From assembly GCA_017306155.1 (NCBI GenBank), contig JAFKJB010000018.1, positions 28,344 through 92,343 on the forward strand: a stretch of DNA of 64,000 bases, written 5' to 3'. The position numbers were made by a program, and so were the translations under genes. Of this stretch, positions 18,841 to 28,375 are shown one piece after another. The DNA comes from Nitrosospira multiformis (GTDB taxonomy: Bacteria; Pseudomonadota; Gammaproteobacteria; Burkholderiales; Nitrosomonadaceae). How positions within the stretch are numbered: the stretch's first letter is position 1; every line of letters begins with the position of its first letter. The notes beneath the pieces were generated by a model. The model worked only from the letters and a program-made list of their open reading frames with translations, was not told the origin of the DNA and made no database searches.

Positions 18841-19000
18841 GGCAGGGAGATGGACTGAAACTGTTATACCTCTTAACCAGTTGCCACGCAAACGCCTTTT
18901 TCCTCTTTTTCCTGTATCCGGATTCTTCTTGTCTGCAGAAATCCCTTAACCGGAACACCTGGCCGCCGCATGCCCGCGATTGTCTGTCGTCCGCGAGTCG

Positions 19001-21064
19001 CTAAGGTATTCGTTGTTTCGTCTGGTCGATGCGATACGGCAGCATCATTTGGTTGTCTTCGTGCTCGAGGACATGGCAATGCCAGACATATTGACCTTCT
19101 CTGACGAAGGTCATGCGCAAGCGCGTGACCTGGCCGGGGTAGGCAATAACCGTATCCTTGCGCCCCAGCTCCCAGGGTTCAGGGGATACAGGAGACGATC
19201 CCGCTTTCAGCTGCACTGTCCCATTTTCTTCATTTACAAGTATGGCCTGCCTGTTGACCAGTTCGAAGGACACGGCGTGGACATGCATGGGATGCGCATC
19301 TTCCGTCGTATTGTAGAGCTCCCAGATTTCCGTTGTCCCCACTACCGGGTTCTGGGTGACGGAATCCTTCCATTCACGGGCGATGCAGGGTGCCGGACCC
19401 GTTCCAGGGTCACCCTGAACGATACCTAAAAAGGCGGCGGCGGGGGACTCGTCAAAGCTTGAGGATTCCTTTTCCAGCAGCGCCAGGCGGCGGACAAATG
19501 TCTCCCGCGGGAGGGGAGGGGTATTCGGAAGCAGCAGATACTGTGGCGGCGTCGAATGGTCCCTGCCTTGAGCGGGAGTCACGTGAAACTGCATGATCAG
19601 TCCGCTGGAGCGAGGGTCCGCCATTTGAAAATCGGTGCCCGGCACTCCTCCGCCAAATGGTTCATCCGGACCGATATTTTTCAGTACATGTCGTCCGACG
19701 GGCACCCGGGTGAAATCCACGATCACATCCGCCCGCTCGGAAGGGCCCAGGAGAATGCGGTTTGCATTCACTGCCGTCATGTTTGCGGGCGCAGAAAGAA
19801 AGCCGCTGTCGCCCCCTATCATCCAGACCTCAATACCGGGAATGCCGTCAAAGTCGAGAATGAGAAAACGCGAGTTGCAGGCATTCAACAGCCGATACCG
19901 ATAACGGGCCTGCTCAACCGTCTGGAAGGGCCATGTATTGCCGTTTACCACCATCATGTTGGCGAAAAACTCCGGGTTCCAGATGGGTGGAATATCGGTG
20001 TCAGGAATGAACGGTCCCGGAATCCCGTCAAAAAAGGCCCGTGAATGAGGATAGAAGAGAGAGCCGTCGATATTGAATGACCGGTCCTGTATCACGAGGG
20101 GAATTTCACGGATATTCCTGTGCTGCGGAAGATGCGCTGGACCATGCGGGGGAGTGGAGCGCGGCAGGATGCCGCGCGTGCCGCTTCGGGCATCTCTTAT
20201 CGCACTATCTCCTTCGGGGCCGCCGCGGATGATATAGAAGCCTGCCAGGCCGGCATAGACGTTCGTGCGTGTCATCCCCAACGCGTGATCGTGGTACCAG
20301 AGTGTCGAAGTCTGCATGTTGGGATAAGTGAACGTAGCGCTGCCCGGCTCCCAGGCCTCCACATCGAGGCTCGCCTCGCGATTGAAGAATTGATACCAGG
20401 TTCCAAACATGGCGTATTCCGAAGGAATACCTGCCGCCGCCGGCAGGTACCACGCTTCAGGGTAGCCGTCGCTATGGCCGGCAACCCCAACCGCGCCATG
20501 CAGATGGGTGACAATCGGCACAGGTCCGCGATAGGAGGCGGGTGTAGTCTTGAAAGAGGGACTCATGTCGCGATGTGCCGTACCGCCTGGCGGGTTTGCC
20601 CAATGCAGCGTGGGATCGACCGGCAGCAAGGGCGGAAGGAAGCCAGCAGTGGCATCATCCTTGAGGCCATTGATCCATTTTACGATCACTGGTTCCTGCC
20701 ATTTTGCCTCAATAGTAAAACCTGGGGCGCGATGAGCAAAAGATCGCCGCTTTCCAGGAAAGGCCGGGCCGTATCCCCATACAGTTGTCGGAGGAAACCC
20801 GCGAGGCAATATCTGCTGGGAAAACTGTTTTACCGAAATTTCGTAATAATCCACATGGCGTCCATCCCCAATGACTTTTTTTCCAGCGGCAGGCATCGCC
20901 GGTGGAATGAATAGGGGTGTCCGGAATTTGTCGACAAGTTCCGGGTTGAGTGACCCGCCGGGAATCGCGGCAATCGCTCTGGAGATGCCGTTAAGCCGAT
21001 CAGATCCAAAAAGGGTTAGCAAGCCGCTGGCGGTATATTTAAGGAATCTACGTCGCGAAACCAT
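19001..21064 (-). CDS. Tat-exported multicopper oxidase (CotA/bilirubin oxidase-like)
   Basis: About 687 residues. The twin-arginine signal (SRRRFLKYTASGL) marks export as a folded copper protein. All four copper-binding clusters are present: HLHG, WYHDHALG, HPMHVH and WHCHVLEHEDNQMM near the C-terminus, the last with the type 1 Cys and a likely axial Met. Such enzymes oxidise phenols, bilirubin or metal ions (Mn, Fe, Cu) and reduce oxygen to water. The ATG at 21064 is chosen because AGAAGGAG precedes it at 6 nt and the Tat motif follows; the longer frame to 21118 adds 18 residues. Confidence 0.88.
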   Translation of the reverse strand: MVSRRRFLKYTASGLLTLFGSDRLNGISRAIAAIPGGSLNPELVDKFRTPLFIPPAMPAAGKKVIGDGRHVDYYEISVKQFSQQILPRGFPPTTVWGYGPAFPGKRRSFAHRAPGFTIEAKWQEPVIVKWINGLKDDATAGFLPPLLPVDPTLHWANPPGGTAHRDMSPSFKTTPASYRGPVPIVTHLHGAVGVAGHSDGYPEAWYLPAAAGIPSEYAMFGTWYQFFNREASLDVEAWEPGSATFTYPNMQTSTLWYHDHALGMTRTNVYAGLAGFYIIRGGPEGDSAIRDARSGTRGILPRSTPPHGPAHLPQHRNIREIPLVIQDRSFNIDGSLFYPHSRAFFDGIPGPFIPDTDIPPIWNPEFFANMMVVNGNTWPFQTVEQARYRYRLLNACNSRFLILDFDGIPGIEVWMIGGDSGFLSAPANMTAVNANRILLGPSERADVIVDFTRVPVGRHVLKNIGPDEPFGGGVPGTDFQMADPRSSGLIMQFHVTPAQGRDHSTPPQYLLLPNTPPLPRETFVRRLALLEKESSSFDESPAAAFLGIVQGDPGTGPAPCIAREWKDSVTQNPVVGTTEIWELYNTTEDAHPMHVHAVSFELVNRQAILVNEENGTVQLKAGSSPVSPEPWELGRKDTVIAYPGQVTRLRMTFVREGQYVWHCHVLEHEDNQMMLPYRIDQTKQRIP

Positions 21065-21385
21065 TAGAAGCTCCTTCTGATCCACGTATCCAGCAAAACG
21101 CCGAGCCATTCTTCTCAACCTGGACGCGCCAGCTTCGGAGATATTGGGAGTTATGCGGCATTTATATTGTTATAATAATACGAATGAGTCGCATTATAAT
21201 TTAGGAGCGCAATTATGCAACTTTTTTCTGGAATTCCGGTAGGGGCAGGGGTCCGTAACGGGGCAGGCGGGTGCGGTCGCCGGGAGCGATTGCAAATATT
21301 TATACTCAGAACGTCGGTTGTCGAACTGCTTACAGTCCGGTTTCATGCGTCCCGGGCAATCCGGGATTCGGGACGATGGAATGCT

Positions 21386-22162
21386 CTATGATGCCCGCTT
21401 CGGCTCCAGCTCCAGTCTTGTGATGTAACGCTGGATCAGCGACAGCGCATTTTCCCCTGTATCGACAAACTCGCAACTCACGCGCCGGGATTGGAGATCA
21501 TGCACCCGCCCGGTGCCAGCCGGTTCCACCCGGATTATCCGCATGGATACAATAACCGTACCGATATCCGGTAATGCAATGCGGCAATTTTCATAAACGC
21601 TTCCTTCCGCGAAATTGCCCCTGCCGTTCGAGTCGATGGCAGCCATGCCACCGCAACTAAGGTCCTGCAGGATAACTTCCACGGTGGAAGGCGACTTTTC
21701 CAGAAGTAGGGGAACCGCACATTTCACGGGCGCAATCGTCGGCGTGGCAACGCGATAATATTCCCGTTTTTGCATACGCAGCAGACTTTTGGGGATCTGT
21801 GCAAGGAAGGCATCGCGCCCCTCGAACCTTGTTTTCCCGATTTGCTGGCAGGAAAATTGAACCTTCACCTGGTTGGGAAATGCAACAACATTCCATTTTC
21901 CAGCCTGCAATGCCTGCTGATTGATCTCCTCATCCGGGCCATAATCGAGCACCATTTTCCCGTGCTGGCTGTCGAGATTCAAAAGGGCGGTCGGGAAAAA
22001 GCTGCCGGCATCACCAAAATAACAGGTGCTTTGCGAATTGTTCCGTACCATCAACCGCAGCACGGAGAGAATATCGTTTTTCGACGAAATGCGGTATTTC
22101 TTGTTGCTATCGGGAAGATCGGGTCTGCTGTCTGCCATGATGTCTGTGCAGGTTCTGCTCAT
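21386..22162 (-). CDS. YcgR-type flagellar brake protein with PilZ domain
   Basis: 258 residues. An N-terminal YcgR-like beta domain (about 25-130) is followed by a PilZ domain (about 133-250) with the c-di-GMP motif RxxxR in QKREYYRVA and the second motif DLSCGGMAA. Such proteins bind c-di-GMP and slow the flagellar motor. No flagellar genes are in the window. The start is uncertain: ATGs at 22162 and 22138 both lack a good ribosome-binding site. Confidence 0.85.
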   Translation of the reverse strand: MSRTCTDIMADSRPDLPDSNKKYRISSKNDILSVLRLMVRNNSQSTCYFGDAGSFFPTALLNLDSQHGKMVLDYGPDEEINQQALQAGKWNVVAFPNQVKVQFSCQQIGKTRFEGRDAFLAQIPKSLLRMQKREYYRVATPTIAPVKCAVPLLLEKSPSTVEVILQDLSCGGMAAIDSNGRGNFAEGSVYENCRIALPDIGTVIVSMRIIRVEPAGTGRVHDLQSRRVSCEFVDTGENALSLIQRYITRLELEPKRAS

Positions 22163-22789
22163 TCATGTTGGGTTTCGCAATGTGCGAATGATCGTTCTCC
22201 CTGAGGTGCTGTCACTGTAGGTGCTGTCACTGTGGGTCACTGTAACATCGACGCCGCATCCGGGAATTTTCCCGGCCATGTGCGGATGGCGCGACGAAGG
22301 ATCAAAGGCAGCGCGCAACAGGCCCAAGGGGTGACGACTATCCTCGTTATAACGACCACAAAACCGAGTACCGTAGCAAAACAGCTTTTTGTTGACAAAA
22401 AATCCTGGGCATTGAAAGCGCGCGAACTCTCAGAATCGAACCCAAAGCCAGGGGGCCTTATAAATCATTGATCACGTTTTCCTTGACATTTCGAAATAAT
22501 CCACATTTTTTGCCTGGGTTACATGCTCAATTCCAGTACTAGCTGTCAAAAGCCCATGGGGCTTGATTTTTATTCAAGTATTTGATAATAAATATATTTA
22601 AAAAAAGTTCAAAAAATAGCCGACTAAGAAAAAATGTTACAGAAAGATGACTTACCCATCGTTTACAGAGCTTATCAACAAACTTATCCACAGCAATTGT
22701 GGACAATCGAAAGGGGGATACCATTGACCGATTTTTCCGGAATCTTCCTGCATAGGGATGTATCTTCGGCTCCCGGATAGTGAAATCAT
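22163..22789. other. Gene-free, partly AT-rich region with DnaA-box-like sequences
   Basis: No convincing coding frame. Positions 22560-22640 are strikingly AT-rich (GATAATAAATATATTTAAAA). Four sequences matching the DnaA box within one base lie on the two sides of it; see the separate entry. Confidence 0.45.
22497..22706. other. Cluster of DnaA-box-like sequences beside an AT-rich stretch (origin-like)
   Basis: TTATCCACA at 22684-22692 is a perfect DnaA box. TTATCAACA at 22672-22680 differs by one base and is 12 bp away. TGTGGACAA at 22698-22706 reads TTGTCCACA on the other strand, one mismatch. TAATCCACA at 22497-22505 also has one mismatch. The AT-rich stretch at 22560-22640 could act as an unwinding element. 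No dnaA, parA or rep gene is nearby, so this may be a chromosomal origin, a DnaA-titrating site or a relic of a replicon. Confidence 0.4.
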
Positions 22790-23047
22790 CGAGAATCATC
22801 CAGCCTGTGCTTCGGCAAACGGGCGGAGGTGACACCCCGCGTAGCAGGTTGCTACAAGCGGGTTGTGGCAAACGTCAAGTGGGAGGACCTATAAATGTCA
22901 ACGCGGAGCAGGTCAGCCGGGGAATGGCCTGAATATACCGGAGATACGTCGACAGAAACTATCATTTCTATCTTCTGGAATTGAGTGCGAGGCTGGCGAA
23001 ACGCGGGCTTTGGGCTGATCCCAATCCTCTTGCACCTGGCAATGGCG
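22790..23047 (+). pseudogene. Decayed thermonuclease (SNase-family) gene fragment
   Basis: The translation can be pieced together as C-terminal thermonuclease sequence: CFGKRAEV, then YKRVVANV (22790-22891), a frame change near 22890, then NVNAEQVSRGMA, a stop TGA at 22930-22932 where intact genes usually have Trp, and IYRRYVDRNYHFYLLE followed by ARLAKRGLWADPNPLAP. That order and the motif VNAEQVRRGMAWxYRRY are typical of bacterial SNase homologues, which cut DNA and RNA. With one frameshift, one stop and no N-terminus, it cannot be functional. Confidence 0.7.
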
Positions 23048-23300
23048 AAATCACAGAAAACGGAAAGGGTGGCGCTTTGGGCGAGCGGGAACGCAGCAGT
23101 ACTACGTCGTCGTCCCTCGGTGCTTGACACAAGCAACAGCAGGGATTGGCAGGGAGACGAGGGGGATACAACGTTTATCCCACCCTTTATCCGTGGGATG
23201 ATCATGCTCCAGAAAGGGGAGATCTATTGTAAGGAGAACGTCAATCGGAGAGATGTAATATCTCGCAGAGTTAGCGCTTTCTTTTTTTAATTCTATACCG

Positions 23301-23981
23301 TCATTCCGGATTCAAACATGATAAAGAAATTATTTGCTTTGGATAATTCAGTGTTAAGGGGTGATTTTTTTCAAAGCCCAAATCTGCATCAGCAACTGGA
23401 TTTACACCGTAAAGCAAGGATTCACAGAGTTGAACGAAAGCGAGGGGTTGGGGAAAAAAGCCAGCTGGTAGTCGTAGATTGTGCACTCCGCTAAACTGTA
23501 GATGAGATGGCGTATGCGCCGTAGCGTCTCTATCATAATCAAAGCGAAGATGTGATGTATTTGTAGGATTCTGACCTTTCAATTCCATAAGTTCAATCCA
23601 GTTATACAAGTACTCGTAAATATCAAAATTATCTCTATCTACTGCATCCTCAGCTGCACAATAAATATCCTCCATCGACTCTCGGGTCCCCACGGGTTTC
23701 GGATAGAAAGCGAGCCTCGCTTTTACCAATCTATCCTCATCATCAAATTGGTAGAAAAATTGGAAAAATGATCCATCCGCGAGGAGAAGTGAGTACTGAT
23801 GAGAGTCTAATAAATGCTGATACTCTAAGGGATAAAATACTCTCTTTACAATTCCTGGCACACGTTCCTGCCAAGTGATTAAACGCTTTTCCCCGTGCAC
23901 TAACGTATTATTGACCTGCGTAATATTTGATAGATGTTGCACCACGTTGTTCAATCCCTGCTTGGCGTGCGCGAATCGCAT
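23301..23981 (-). CDS. DUF2290-family protein, partner of the helicase
   Basis: 226 residues that resemble the DUF2290 family: a helical N-terminus, then a beta-rich core with SLLLADGSFFQFFYQFD and ARLAFYPKP, and a C-terminal HLRFDYD segment. The function of the family is not established. It starts 18 nt downstream of the helicase gene on the same strand, so both belong to one operon. Base composition is clearly richer in A and T than in the genes on either side, as expected for acquired DNA. Confidence 0.7.
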   Translation of the reverse strand: MRFAHAKQGLNNVVQHLSNITQVNNTLVHGEKRLITWQERVPGIVKRVFYPLEYQHLLDSHQYSLLLADGSFFQFFYQFDDEDRLVKARLAFYPKPVGTRESMEDIYCAAEDAVDRDNFDIYEYLYNWIELMELKGQNPTNTSHLRFDYDRDATAHTPSHLQFSGVHNLRLPAGFFPQPLAFVQLCESLLYGVNPVADADLGFEKNHPLTLNYPKQIISLSCLNPE

Positions 23982-23999
23982 AAAGTTACCACTCTCGGG

Positions 24000-26204
24000 C
24001 TACTGATCCAATCTTTGATCTAGGAGCAATTGACGTATCTCTGGGTTTTTTTCTACGAGTTCAATAAGTTCTTGGATCTTGTCGAGTTCTTTGTCTGATT
24101 TATTCAGAAAAGATTTACTCTTTCGCACGGACTCTTTGCTAGGACAAGTGAAGCAAAACTTTGGAAAATCCTTTTTAATTGCGTCAATTTCTTTGACTAG
24201 TTGCGCCATCGGTTCTCCGTGACCGCTTATATAACACCAGCCACGTGATCGTGTTACGGCAACAAAGAAAGTGTTTCGGGCGCGTAAAGTGAAGTCGTTA
24301 GTTACATACTGCGCATTCATGACAAACACGATATTCGCTTCGTTCCCTTTAGACCTAAAAGGAGTTGTAATGGTTACGAAGCCTTTAGGTTTAAACACAT
24401 CCGCACTTTCCACATATCCCGGTATCACCGAACGAACCCCTACTGACGTAAGAATTCGCTGCACCGCAAACATTGATTCCTTATTGTTCCCTCCCTTTAA
24501 GTTGATTATGATAATTTCTTCTGGAGCGACTCCTTGAGTAGATACCAGGTCCATCAACTTGTTTTTTATGAAATCCAATTGCTCGCTATTGTCGTTACAG
24601 TTCTGTACCTGAACAAGATTGAGTGGTTTTTTGTTGTTTGCACGTAAGATACGTTCCAAAAGATTTTTACTATTTTCGTCAGGTCGCTCGATCTCGACCC
24701 GGTCATTTTCCTCGATCATCAAAGCGCGCGGTTCATTCACCCGGTAACCAATTGCCTCCCATTCTGCAGGGTGATAAAACATTTCAGTTGGCCTATTCGA
24801 ATATAGGCCCATTGCAACACCATGCGCTGTCATCAGGACTGGTCTCGGTGTTCTATAGCAGTTGGGAAGTACGAAGTCTTTGGGAATATCTCCTGCATAT
24901 TTCCCTACGAGTACGCTGTCCGGAAGATTAGGACCGCCATCTGGCTTTAGTCCAAACAGCTCCGACGGGCCTTTGATTTCTATATCTCGTAAGGACTGAA
25001 ATTCATCATAAGCCCAAATAATCCTTTTATCTGCTTCCTCCTGTTTCGCTAGCTTATATACGACGTGAAAGACCTCGTTCGGAAAATCTTGAGCCTCATC
25101 AATGAGAATCAGATCATAATCCTGTTGGAGAGAATCACCTGCTCGATTCAGAAGATCCCCATAGACGTATGCAAGAGGGTCCCCCCTCCCTCTAGCATCT
25201 GAAAGCGTAAGCGGAGTTATGCCCAATTTCTGGCACAGAGTGGAATATAACCCCGGTTTTTGCTTACCACCCCAAGCATGAAAAACGTGTACTTTATCCT
25301 CAAAATCGGGAGCACGCTTTGCCTCAAGTGTGTAGTACTTTGATATCAGATTTTGAACATGTTGATACAGGCTTTGGGTGTTAAACAGATAGAGTATTTT
25401 AAAGTCCGGAAATCGCTTATGAGTGATTGCTGCCTTCAGACATAGGACGATTGTTTTTCCCGTACCTGCCAGCCCACGGATGCGCTGTGGTCCTGGAGGC
25501 AATTGCATCGCCGCGAGTCGTTGGGCATTATCTTGTCGGAATGTTGCGTGTAAGGACTTTTGTATATAGTCATTTACCGTTTTTAGAGGACCTTCTTCAA
25601 TGCCACTCTTTTTTGACTCATAGATAAATGTTCCCTCAAGCAAGGCATAGATACGATCCAGAGATTCAGAATTACACTGATAGTCGGTAGGCAATCCACG
25701 AAGCCAACCCTCTAAGCAATCAATAGAAAAGGATTCGATCGAGAACTCTTCCTGATCTACAAGTTTAGAGATTTCGTTCTGCGAATTGGCGCAGAAAACA
25801 ATAGCGCTTTTAATTGGGACTTTTGACCGCCGTGTTTTTCTGTCGTACAAGAATCGATCATTCTTCAGTCTGCTTTGAACTTCTTCTTCATATATATCTA
25901 AAATCAGACTCCGGGGTGGTATGGCGGCTCCGGAATCCATCTTCCAATACTCGAGTTCATCTACCTCAATTACACCTGCTACACGTTCCTCAACTACATC
26001 AACTAAGATAATTCCTAGCTCTTGAGAGACGACGATAAAGGATGGTACATCCTCGTCCGACGCTCGACCTAGTGTTGTTAGCTTATATCCGACATAACCG
26101 TTATAGTCTGCATACACACGGCGAATTACGTTCGCAACTCGAAGTTGAAACGGTTTATTCTCAAGCGCGAGAGAGCCTGAAAGGAAAGAGAAAGTTTCAC
26201 TCAT
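24000..26204 (-). CDS. UvrD/Rep-like superfamily 1 helicase with NERD-like N-terminus
   Basis: 734 residues. Residues about 1-110 look like a NERD (nuclease-related) domain (SFIVVSQELGIILVDVVEE), but the usual catalytic E-x-K is D-V-V, so nuclease activity is doubtful. The helicase core has Walker A GLAGTGKTIVL, Walker B LILIDEAQDF, and the C-terminal motifs TPFRSKGNEANIV and FFVAVTRSRGW. The end is a Lys/Glu-rich tail. It is the first gene of a two-gene operon with the DUF2290 protein and lies next to a tRNA gene. Low-GC compared with its neighbours. A role in phage defence or DNA repair is inference. Confidence 0.82.
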   Translation of the reverse strand: MSETFSFLSGSLALENKPFQLRVANVIRRVYADYNGYVGYKLTTLGRASDEDVPSFIVVSQELGIILVDVVEERVAGVIEVDELEYWKMDSGAAIPPRSLILDIYEEEVQSRLKNDRFLYDRKTRRSKVPIKSAIVFCANSQNEISKLVDQEEFSIESFSIDCLEGWLRGLPTDYQCNSESLDRIYALLEGTFIYESKKSGIEEGPLKTVNDYIQKSLHATFRQDNAQRLAAMQLPPGPQRIRGLAGTGKTIVLCLKAAITHKRFPDFKILYLFNTQSLYQHVQNLISKYYTLEAKRAPDFEDKVHVFHAWGGKQKPGLYSTLCQKLGITPLTLSDARGRGDPLAYVYGDLLNRAGDSLQQDYDLILIDEAQDFPNEVFHVVYKLAKQEEADKRIIWAYDEFQSLRDIEIKGPSELFGLKPDGGPNLPDSVLVGKYAGDIPKDFVLPNCYRTPRPVLMTAHGVAMGLYSNRPTEMFYHPAEWEAIGYRVNEPRALMIEENDRVEIERPDENSKNLLERILRANNKKPLNLVQVQNCNDNSEQLDFIKNKLMDLVSTQGVAPEEIIIINLKGGNNKESMFAVQRILTSVGVRSVIPGYVESADVFKPKGFVTITTPFRSKGNEANIVFVMNAQYVTNDFTLRARNTFFVAVTRSRGWCYISGHGEPMAQLVKEIDAIKKDFPKFCFTCPSKESVRKSKSFLNKSDKELDKIQELIELVEKNPEIRQLLLDQRLDQ

Positions 26205-26331
26205 GATTTATCTAACTTCAATGCAATTCGCAAGGCCTATTTGATTACCGGCTAGTGCGCGCCAGATATGGCCGAGACAACATGCTACCCGATTTACTCG
26301 GAGCCTTCATGACTTCCATGAGTTGTTTTTT

Positions 26332-26406
26332 TGGTGGGCGGTACTGGGATCGAACCAGTGGCTTCCACCGTGTGAAGGTGGCACTCTACCGCTGAGTTAA
26401 CCGCCC
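26332..26406 (-). tRNA. tRNA-Val (CAC)
   Basis: Reads on the minus strand from GGGCGGT to a genome-encoded CCA. The anticodon stem CCACC/GGTGG encloses the loop TTCACAC, giving anticodon CAC for GUG codons. The T arm contains GGTTCGATCC. Its 3' end faces the helicase/DUF2290 operon, the usual side for island insertion. Confidence 0.95.
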
Positions 26407-26606
26407 ATTGCTTGACGTTATCTGAAATCGATAACGGTTGAGGGAGGCGCAATTAGAGCATAAATCGAGGATTTTGGTCAACGCGCACAAACGTATGGGG
26501 TTACGGGATATGTGTATACAAATGTTAAGTCACGCTGACTTGGCATTAACGTAAAATAACGGATTCTCATATTCCACAGTTGGGTTTGCAACCTGACTTC
26601 CACTTC

Positions 26607-28004
26607 ATGATCCGCACCCGTTTCGCTCCCAGTCCCACTGGTTATCTTCACATTGGTGGCGCCCGCACAGCGCTGTTTTCCTGGGCTTATGCCCGCAAGC
26701 ACGGCGGTAAATTCATCCTTCGGATCGAGAATACCGATCTGGAACGTTCCACTGCCCAGTCCACGCAGGCGATTCTGGATGGGATGGCATGGCTGGGGCT
26801 GGATTACGACGAGGGGCCGTTTTACCAGATGCAGCGGCTGGCGCGCTATCATGAGGTGGCGGAGCAGTTGCTGCGCACGGGCCATGCCTATTACTGCTAT
26901 TGCAGCAGGGAAGAGCTGGACGCCATGCGCGAGCAGCAGCGCGCGGCGGGTTTGAAGCCCCGCTATGATGGCCGGTGGCGCGATTCCAGGGAGACGCCGC
27001 CTGCCGGTGTGAAGCCCGTGGTGCGGTTGAAAAACCCGCTGGATGGAGAGGTAACGTTCAAGGATCTCATAAAGGGTGAGATAACCGTTGCCAACAGCGA
27101 ACTGGATGATCTCGTGCTGCTGCGCGGGGATGGCGTGCCGACTTATAACTTTGGCGTAGTGATCGATGATCTCGATATGAACATCACGCACGTGATTCGG
27201 GGTGACGATCACGTGAACAACACGCCGCGGCAGATCAACATACTGAAGGCACTGGGTGCGCCTCTGCCGCAATACGCGCATGTGCCGATGATTCTCGGGG
27301 CGGATGGCGAGCGCTTGTCGAAGCGGCATGGCGCGGTTTCGGTGATGCAATACCGGGAAGATGGTTATCTGCCGGAGGCGCTGGTGAATTATCTGGCGCG
27401 GCTGGGTTGGTCGCATGGTGATGAGGAAATATTCAGCCGGGAGCAGCTGGTCGAGTGGTTCGATTTATCCAGCATCAACCGCTCACCGGCGAAATTCAAT
27501 CCGGAAAAGTTGCAATGGCTCAACCAGCAATACCTGAAAACGGCGGATAACGAGCGGCTGGCAGAATTGGTGAAACCTTTTCTTTCAGTGAATGACTGTG
27601 ATGTTACTGGCGGAGATGTCCCCGATTTGCGCAAGGTCGTGAATCTGCTCAAGGAGCGCGTCAATACCGTTGCGGAACTGGCGGATGCGGCTGTTTATTT
27701 CTTCCGTCCGCTGGAGCCTGCGGAAGAACTGAGGGCGCAGTATTTCGTCGCCGAGGCTAAAGCTCCGATTCTCGATTTGCGGACAAAACTTGCAAAGGTC
27801 GAATGGGAAGGCCATGCCATCAACGACATAATCAAGGCCAGCGCTACGGCACACGGCGTGAAGATGCCGAAGGTGGCAATGCCGCTGCGTGTCATGGTTA
27901 CAGGAGAGGCGCAGACTCCGGCGATCAATGTCGTGCTGGAATTGCTGGGCAGGGAGGAAACGCTGCGGAGGATGGACAGCCAGCTTGAGTATTTTCCCGG
28001 CTGA
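26607..28004 (+). CDS. gltX: Glutamyl-tRNA synthetase
   Basis: 465 residues; charges tRNA-Glu. Class I signature HIGG in SPTGYLHIGGARTAL (residues 9-23) and the KMSKS-like loop SKRHG (in GERLSKRHGAV) are present. I start at the ATG at 26607 because family members begin IRTRFAPSPTG; the nine extra upstream residues are unlikely. Its cognate tRNA-Glu lies at 28376, with only tRNA-Ala between. Confidence 0.95.
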   Translation: MIRTRFAPSPTGYLHIGGARTALFSWAYARKHGGKFILRIENTDLERSTAQSTQAILDGMAWLGLDYDEGPFYQMQRLARYHEVAEQLLRTGHAYYCYCSREELDAMREQQRAAGLKPRYDGRWRDSRETPPAGVKPVVRLKNPLDGEVTFKDLIKGEITVANSELDDLVLLRGDGVPTYNFGVVIDDLDMNITHVIRGDDHVNNTPRQINILKALGAPLPQYAHVPMILGADGERLSKRHGAVSVMQYREDGYLPEALVNYLARLGWSHGDEEIFSREQLVEWFDLSSINRSPAKFNPEKLQWLNQQYLKTADNERLAELVKPFLSVNDCDVTGGDVPDLRKVVNLLKERVNTVAELADAAVYFFRPLEPAEELRAQYFVAEAKAPILDLRTKLAKVEWEGHAINDIIKASATAHGVKMPKVAMPLRVMVTGEAQTPAINVVLELLGREETLRRMDSQLEYFPG

Positions 28005-28317: not shown

Positions 28318-28375
28318 GTTTATGGCAATACACAAACTGACGGCAAACGGCTTTTAAGCATTTCAAAGTCCTCTG

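Follow-up and report, generated by a model that had tools for sequence, protein, structure and literature searches.

What do two adjacent, AT-rich genes next to a tRNA gene do in Nitrosospira multiformis? The genes lie in a stretch of 64,000 nucleotides (nt) of contig JAFKJB010000018.1 (assembly GCA_017306155.1, forward-strand positions 28,344 to 92,343), here called the window, whose positions are used unless another locus is named. One encodes a helicase and the other a DUF2290 protein. An initial annotation had taken the two genes for a candidate defence module of a combination that it could not name. The combination does have a name: the window pair is almost certainly a member of the Helicase+DUF2290 system, which was tested against phage in 2022 and is modelled in PADLOC. 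Judged by its sequence, it appears to be a divergent, full-length member of this already named and partly tested system.

The two genes and their identity

Both genes are on the minus strand, with the helicase gene first. The helicase gene (24000..26204) is a full-length open reading frame (ORF) encoding a UvrD-like, superfamily 1 (SF1) protein of 734 amino acids. It is followed after 18 nt by the DUF2290 gene (23301..23981), which encodes 226 amino acids. Pfam identifies UvrD_C_2 in the helicase (8.3e-10) and PF10053 in the DUF2290 protein (3.9e-12), both above the curated cut-offs. The guanine-plus-cytosine (GC) content of the module is 43.1%, compared with 53.3% for the window. Among 611 stretches of equal size, two have a GC content as low, and both overlap the module. 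A tRNA-Val(CAC) gene (26332..26406, minus strand) is located upstream of the helicase gene, 127 nt from its start. The coordinates, the exact gap, the DUF2290 assignment, the AT-rich composition and the tRNA neighbour are all as the initial annotation had them. Scans for promoters (4 sites, shuffle mean 5.5) and terminators (1 site, shuffle mean 3.3) did not exceed the shuffled sequences.

Assignment to the system was made with PADLOC models. The Helicase model PDLC03002 matches residues 108-711 of the window helicase at 8.7e-104, and the DUF2290 model PDLC02998 matches its partner at 8.7e-16. All 23 helicases that we aligned match the helicase model at E<=1e-20, and 1/23 also matches NERD+UvrD at that threshold. 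The helicase family, the DUF2290 partner, the adjacency, strand and order of the genes, and the SF1 motifs are all present in the window. According to the excerpts of published work used here and below, the system was described by Rousset et al. in 2022, with the DUF2290 protein of K. pneumoniae SB5961 serving as a search query; a relative of the window pair inhibits phage T7, and the system was reported in Vibrio and Bacillus prophage hotspots (PMC9122126). The window pair and the published system (PDLC03002 with PDLC02998/02999) have in common both families, near-contiguous genes and the helicase-first order, and the published loci lie in mobile hotspots (PMC9122126). The window copy differs in being divergent and in its position at a chromosomal tRNA-Val site rather than in a P4 or prophage hotspot. 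Searches of the open-access literature found no paper on how the system works, a scope outside which subscription papers and preprints fall.

Linkage of the two genes

Is the pairing peculiar to this locus? Searches were made from each gene separately and in plasmid and viral records, and the resulting sets may overlap. Beginning with DUF2290 alone, a scan of genome contigs with a closer, six-row alignment (A3) gave 42 pattern matches and 25 confirmed relatives. A helicase is directly upstream in 25/25, including one locus (L072) where DUF2290 is present and the helicase is in two separated pieces. The PF10053 search matched 4/369 genomes of the class, the window's own included, and 4/4 are paired with the helicase. 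Beginning with the helicase, 8/398 genomes of the phylum match at E<=1e-30, again with the window's own counted, and DUF2290 is adjacent in 8/8. The helicase also matches 49 plasmid records; eight were opened and 8/8 are paired. Viral contigs supplied six loci. Four are paired, one is cut at the helicase end by the end of the contig, and one is a weak helicase match with no DUF2290, which is probably unrelated. As single queries, the window proteins found no confirmed relative in the viral scans, and a search of phage records with the window helicase returned no match. The helicase and DUF2290 form a strict pair across distant bacteria, and are found neither mostly apart nor in core loci, the distribution that would have counted against the defence role first proposed.

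One of the eight opened plasmid records, a small Acinetobacter plasmid (L063, 2950-3619), has its DUF2290 annotated as two overlapping ORFs, possibly a decayed copy.

The pair is rare. It is present in 1/61 relatives, the window's own genome, and is absent from the 22 other genomes of the genus that were searched (one about 80% complete). Its settings are mobile and variable. In two E. coli chromosomes it lies at the edge of integrase/Trb islands, at one plasmid locus it adjoins a SIR2/AAA group, and at one plasmid locus it is three genes ahead of an AbiEii-type gene. On a Thioflavicoccus plasmid (L061, 4422-7275) Helicase+DUF2290 is found within a BREX cluster, between the methyltransferase and PglZ.

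This distribution bears on whether the two proteins could be a housekeeping DNA-repair pair. Structural comparison places UvrD, PcrA and Dna2 among the closest matches of the helicase, as might be expected of a repair protein. The absence from the 22 other genus genomes searched, the 4/369 genomes of the class, the low GC content and the mobile settings argue the other way, and we regard a repair role as very improbable.

The tRNA-Val site

How did the module come to lie beside tRNA-Val? In relative G007 a GGDEF-EAL gene takes the place of the module, and both flanks of the module (window 18904-22756 and 26329-27995) are retained around it. Therefore 22757-26328 is a variable segment that contains the module and has the tRNA-Val gene at its right edge. 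The tRNA-Val block next to the ORF at 26580, which we take to be the glutamyl-tRNA synthetase gene gltX, is conserved: the tRNA-side DNA is matched in 18/19 fetched relatives, and ARAGORN finds tRNA-Val in the same 18.

The gene content beside tRNA-Val varies between species of the genus, and several species hold defence-type genes there. The neighbourhood in G003 has an integrase, a C5 methylase, an AspBHI-like nuclease and Vsr. A GajB-like gene (7.7e-223) lies about 3.3 kb from the tRNA in G006, and G019 and G002 have an AAA/OLD-like ATPase gene and a PLD-Snf2 protein (9.2e-130), respectively. No defence-type match was obtained among the scanned ORFs of G007, and no PADLOC match in G014. Since the family scan covered ten cargo-like ORFs chosen from 6 of the 19 fetched loci (L036-L054), it establishes that defence-type genes use the site and not how often they do so. 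Together with the PADLOC matches, the strict linkage and the mobile settings, this use of the site supports the defence role that had been suggested for the pair.

No integrase is encoded among the ORFs neighbouring the module in the window, no repeat of the tRNA 3' end was found down to 9 nt in 22201-23400, and tblastn with the cargo genes of relatives gave no more than weak, scattered matches in the gap. A decayed nuclease gene, presumably staphylococcal-nuclease-like, lies on the other side of the module from the tRNA (22805..23050, plus strand), where the initial annotation had placed a dead nuclease. Pieces of it align, with a DNA identity of about 69%, to uninterrupted ORFs at other loci of the genus (L096, 1358-1807, minus strand; L100, 1183-1680, plus strand). 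In the window a stop breaks its reading frame, and no counterpart of the 5' part of the gene was found.

Next to the variable segment is an AT-rich stretch (22560-22720) with three DnaA-box-like 9-mers (22672, 22684 and 22698). It had been called origin-like. It is chromosomal DNA that G007 also has. On the 3.18-Mb contig of G007 it is separated from dnaA by about 1.84 Mb, or by at least 1.3 Mb if the contig is circular. The distance from dnaA and the conservation with the chromosome reject it as oriC in G007. A 22-nt repeat with 91% identity occurs at 20835-20856 and 22485-22506. The first copy is inside ORF 19001-21118, near the ORF start, and the second is upstream of a PilZ/YcgR-like gene. 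We take ORF 19001-21118 to be multicopper-oxidase-like.

The helicase and its N-terminal domain

The helicase family was aligned with 23 members (alignment A5), omitting L065, L069, L072, L074, L076, L077, L078, L087 and L093, which are cut, weak, broken or near-duplicate. All 23, the window helicase among them, keep the SF1 motifs. The Walker A motif GLAGTGKT of the window helicase occupies residues 244-251 (25452..25475, minus strand) and its Walker B motif, or motif II, DEAQD occupies residues 369-373 (25086..25100, minus strand). The structure model has a mean predicted local distance difference test (pLDDT) score of 73.7. Its best 50 structural matches include Schlafen-11/14 and Upf1 as well as Dna2, UvrD and PcrA, with global template modelling (TM) scores of 0.25-0.39, normalised by model length.

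Does the N-terminal domain cut DNA? The initial annotation had called it NERD-like and doubted that it cuts, reading D-V-V at the catalytic E-x-K. In the model the N-terminal 160 residues follow an alpha-beta-beta-beta-alpha-beta order, partly at low confidence. The NERD profile of Pfam matches 0/23 family helicases at E<=0.1, and the domain is NERD-like by eye alone. The NERD catalytic motif is D ... E-x-K. Its Asp column is kept in 21/23 helicases and is S in the window. The E-x-K position reads D-L-[IV] in 9/23, D-V-V in the window (residues 69-71), D-L-K in L064 and other letters in 12; the Lys is present in 1/23 (L064) and absent in 22/23. Residues 64-72 of the window helicase, GIILVDVVE (25989..26015, minus strand), presumably hold a degenerate E-x-K of a NERD/PD-(D/E)XK-like domain. 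The letters D-V-V are as first read, and loss of cutting is plausible for the window copy; the NERD label did not gain profile support. Because L064 retains D ... D-L-K, the loss of the motif is not family-wide. Going by the alignment, the domain appears degenerate in the window copy, perhaps not in every member.

L064 (5452-7530), a member on a viral contig, is the sole helicase of the 23 with D ... D-L-K.

The DUF2290 protein

Is the partner of the helicase an enzyme? An alignment of 26 DUF2290 proteins (A4) was made. The partial L094 was omitted, as were L077, L078 and L093, which from scores and coordinates were taken by judgement as near-duplicates of kept rows; L065 and L069 have no DUF2290. 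D69, P96, R146, H156, H160, R170, F182 and Y191 are invariant in 26/26, and D148 is kept in 25/26. Residues 146-160, R-x-D ... H-x-x-x-H (23502..23546, minus strand), are a candidate active-site cluster. The structure model, in which strands alternate with helices, has a mean pLDDT of 72.8, and its best ten-residue blocks reach at least 90. No fold match was found at E<=0.001 in the PDB (best 0.66) or among viral models (best 0.33), and the best solved chain by sequence has an E-value of 0.36. For a 26-row alignment and a model of moderate quality, the lack of a match does not prove a new fold.

These results may be read in two ways. The helicase itself could be the weapon, unwinding or stripping replicating foreign DNA, with DUF2290 as a non-catalytic loading or specificity subunit. 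The SF1 motifs are the best-conserved part of the system and DUF2290 has no detectable enzyme relative, as this explanation would predict. Conversely, the charged residues R146, H156, H160 and R170 are kept in 26/26 DUF2290 proteins despite 18-27% identity to the window protein. Invariant charged residues at such low identity look more like an active site than a scaffold, and we consider the helicase a possible but less likely weapon.

One candidate for the chemistry is TumE (DUF6516), a family of translation-targeting toxins (PMC10584680). DUF2290 could be a relative of TumE that is restrained by the helicase, forming a toxin-antitoxin-like pair triggered by DNA. By eye the two families have a similar order of short motifs: D-G, E/Q, R-L-x-[YF], R-[YF]-D, H-(x)-H and a C-terminal helix. 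The Pfam TumE model matches 0/26 DUF2290 proteins at E<=1, a search in which the HMMER filters drop most weak matches. Profiles were then compared with decoys, using 26/28 rows of TumE after two short pieces were dropped. The full profiles gave no signal, as 23/200 shuffles and 79/102 reversed profiles score at least as high. With the insertion of DUF2290 cut out and default settings, 0/200 shuffles and 0/102 reversed-and-rotated profiles reach the TumE score, the cut having been chosen after the motifs were seen. At low gap costs 47/102 reversed profiles score as well as the cut profile, and in a fairer test, where the decoys were allowed a cut of their own, so do 11/100 shuffles. Homology to TumE is not significant by these tests and stays a lead; a toxin-antitoxin-like pair of this kind is doubtful.

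A proposed sensor and effector mechanism

How might the helicase and DUF2290 act together? The pair was probably acquired as a cassette at the tRNA-Val site. In the proposed mechanism the helicase would be an ATP-driven sensor that loads on abnormal replicating DNA, either that of a phage or that produced by Rep-driven plasmid replication. The N-terminal domain of the window helicase, apparently too degenerate for cutting, would serve in DNA binding or docking. ATP-driven movement would release or activate DUF2290, the presumed catalytic effector, which would then halt the infected cell, a plan modelled on Hachiman and Gabija. We infer the sensor and executor steps from the conserved motifs, from a plasmid phenotype in P. 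aeruginosa strain PAO1 and from that plan. Whether the helicase is the sensor and DUF2290 the effector is, in our judgement, evenly balanced. The overall explanation, a divergent member of the system that arrived as a cassette at tRNA-Val and works as sensor and effector, is the one that we consider likely.

The PAO1 phenotype comes from plasmid pNUK73. High rep expression and the fitness cost of the plasmid both depend on the helicase PA1372, which was found together with PA1371 (PMC4410645). The cost stems from rep expression and accompanies SOS induction (PMC4410645, PMC4208098), and inactivation of PA1372 restored expression and fitness in PAO1 carrying pNUK73 (PMC4410645). A 2024 paper assigned PA1372/PA1371 to the Helicase+DUF2290 system (PMC11637435). 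Compared by description, PA1372-PA1371 likewise combines a UvrD-like C-terminal helicase with PA1371 at low GC content (PMC4410645, PMC11637435). The PAO1 pair is known from plasmid cost and the relative of the window pair from a phage assay.

Known systems supply the plan. Hachiman (HamAB) is a works-like comparison, in which a helicase sensor restrains a small partner of once unknown function (PMC12278908). No Hachiman model is among the PADLOC matches of the window at E<=1, and DUF2290 showed no relation to known nucleases in the family and fold searches. In Gabija (GajAB; PMC10952713), cited as an analogy, GajB is also a UvrD-like helicase. GajB models match the window helicase weakly (best 2.9e-06), compared with 8.7e-104 for the Helicase model. 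No GajA was seen beside the helicase, where the two ORFs scanned are PilZ and helix-turn-helix proteins and the others were judged from their translations. The NERD+UvrD model (PADLOC C3a187) matches the helicase core (5.2e-09, window residues 225-405) and stops short of the N-terminal domain.

Several observations weigh against the sensor and effector explanation. The window proteins have 18-30% identity to their relatives (helicase 25-30%, DUF2290 18-27%). No fold or family match of DUF2290 points to catalytic chemistry. The window DUF2290 deviates from the family at four nearly invariant positions: it has T in place of P157 and L in place of both I171 and F185, and it lacks a C-terminal His kept in 25/26. 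Judged from the alignment, the N-terminal domain may still cut in some members such as L064. In the accounts of PAO1 consulted, two kinases outside the system show the same effect as PA1372 (PMC4410645), and raised rep expression could reflect regulation or assistance by the helicase just as well as toxicity.

The four deviations also raise the question of whether the window copy is a decaying, non-functional passenger. It is a divergent copy beside a dead gene, and the ORFs around it include no integrase. The family also has at least one broken member elsewhere, L072 with its divided helicase. Both frames of the window pair are nevertheless full length and the helicase motifs are kept, making decay unlikely.

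Implications

The window copy contributes one divergent member to a known system and is ordinary as a discovery. A bolder proposal for the family, which we hold at long odds, is that DUF2290 is a new effector enzyme, possibly of the translation-stopping TumE kind, docked on a helicase that tracks along DNA and has lost the activity of its nuclease-like domain in nearly all members. Abnormal replication would then lead to growth arrest. The N-terminal domain would have changed from a cutter to a sensor or dock, and a few members, L064 (D-L-K) among them, would still represent the older state. The alignments yield a short list of DUF2290 residues for mutation. With this list, the linkage of helicase and DUF2290 over distant bacteria and the tRNA-Val site, the question of whether the pair works as sensor and effector becomes directly testable.

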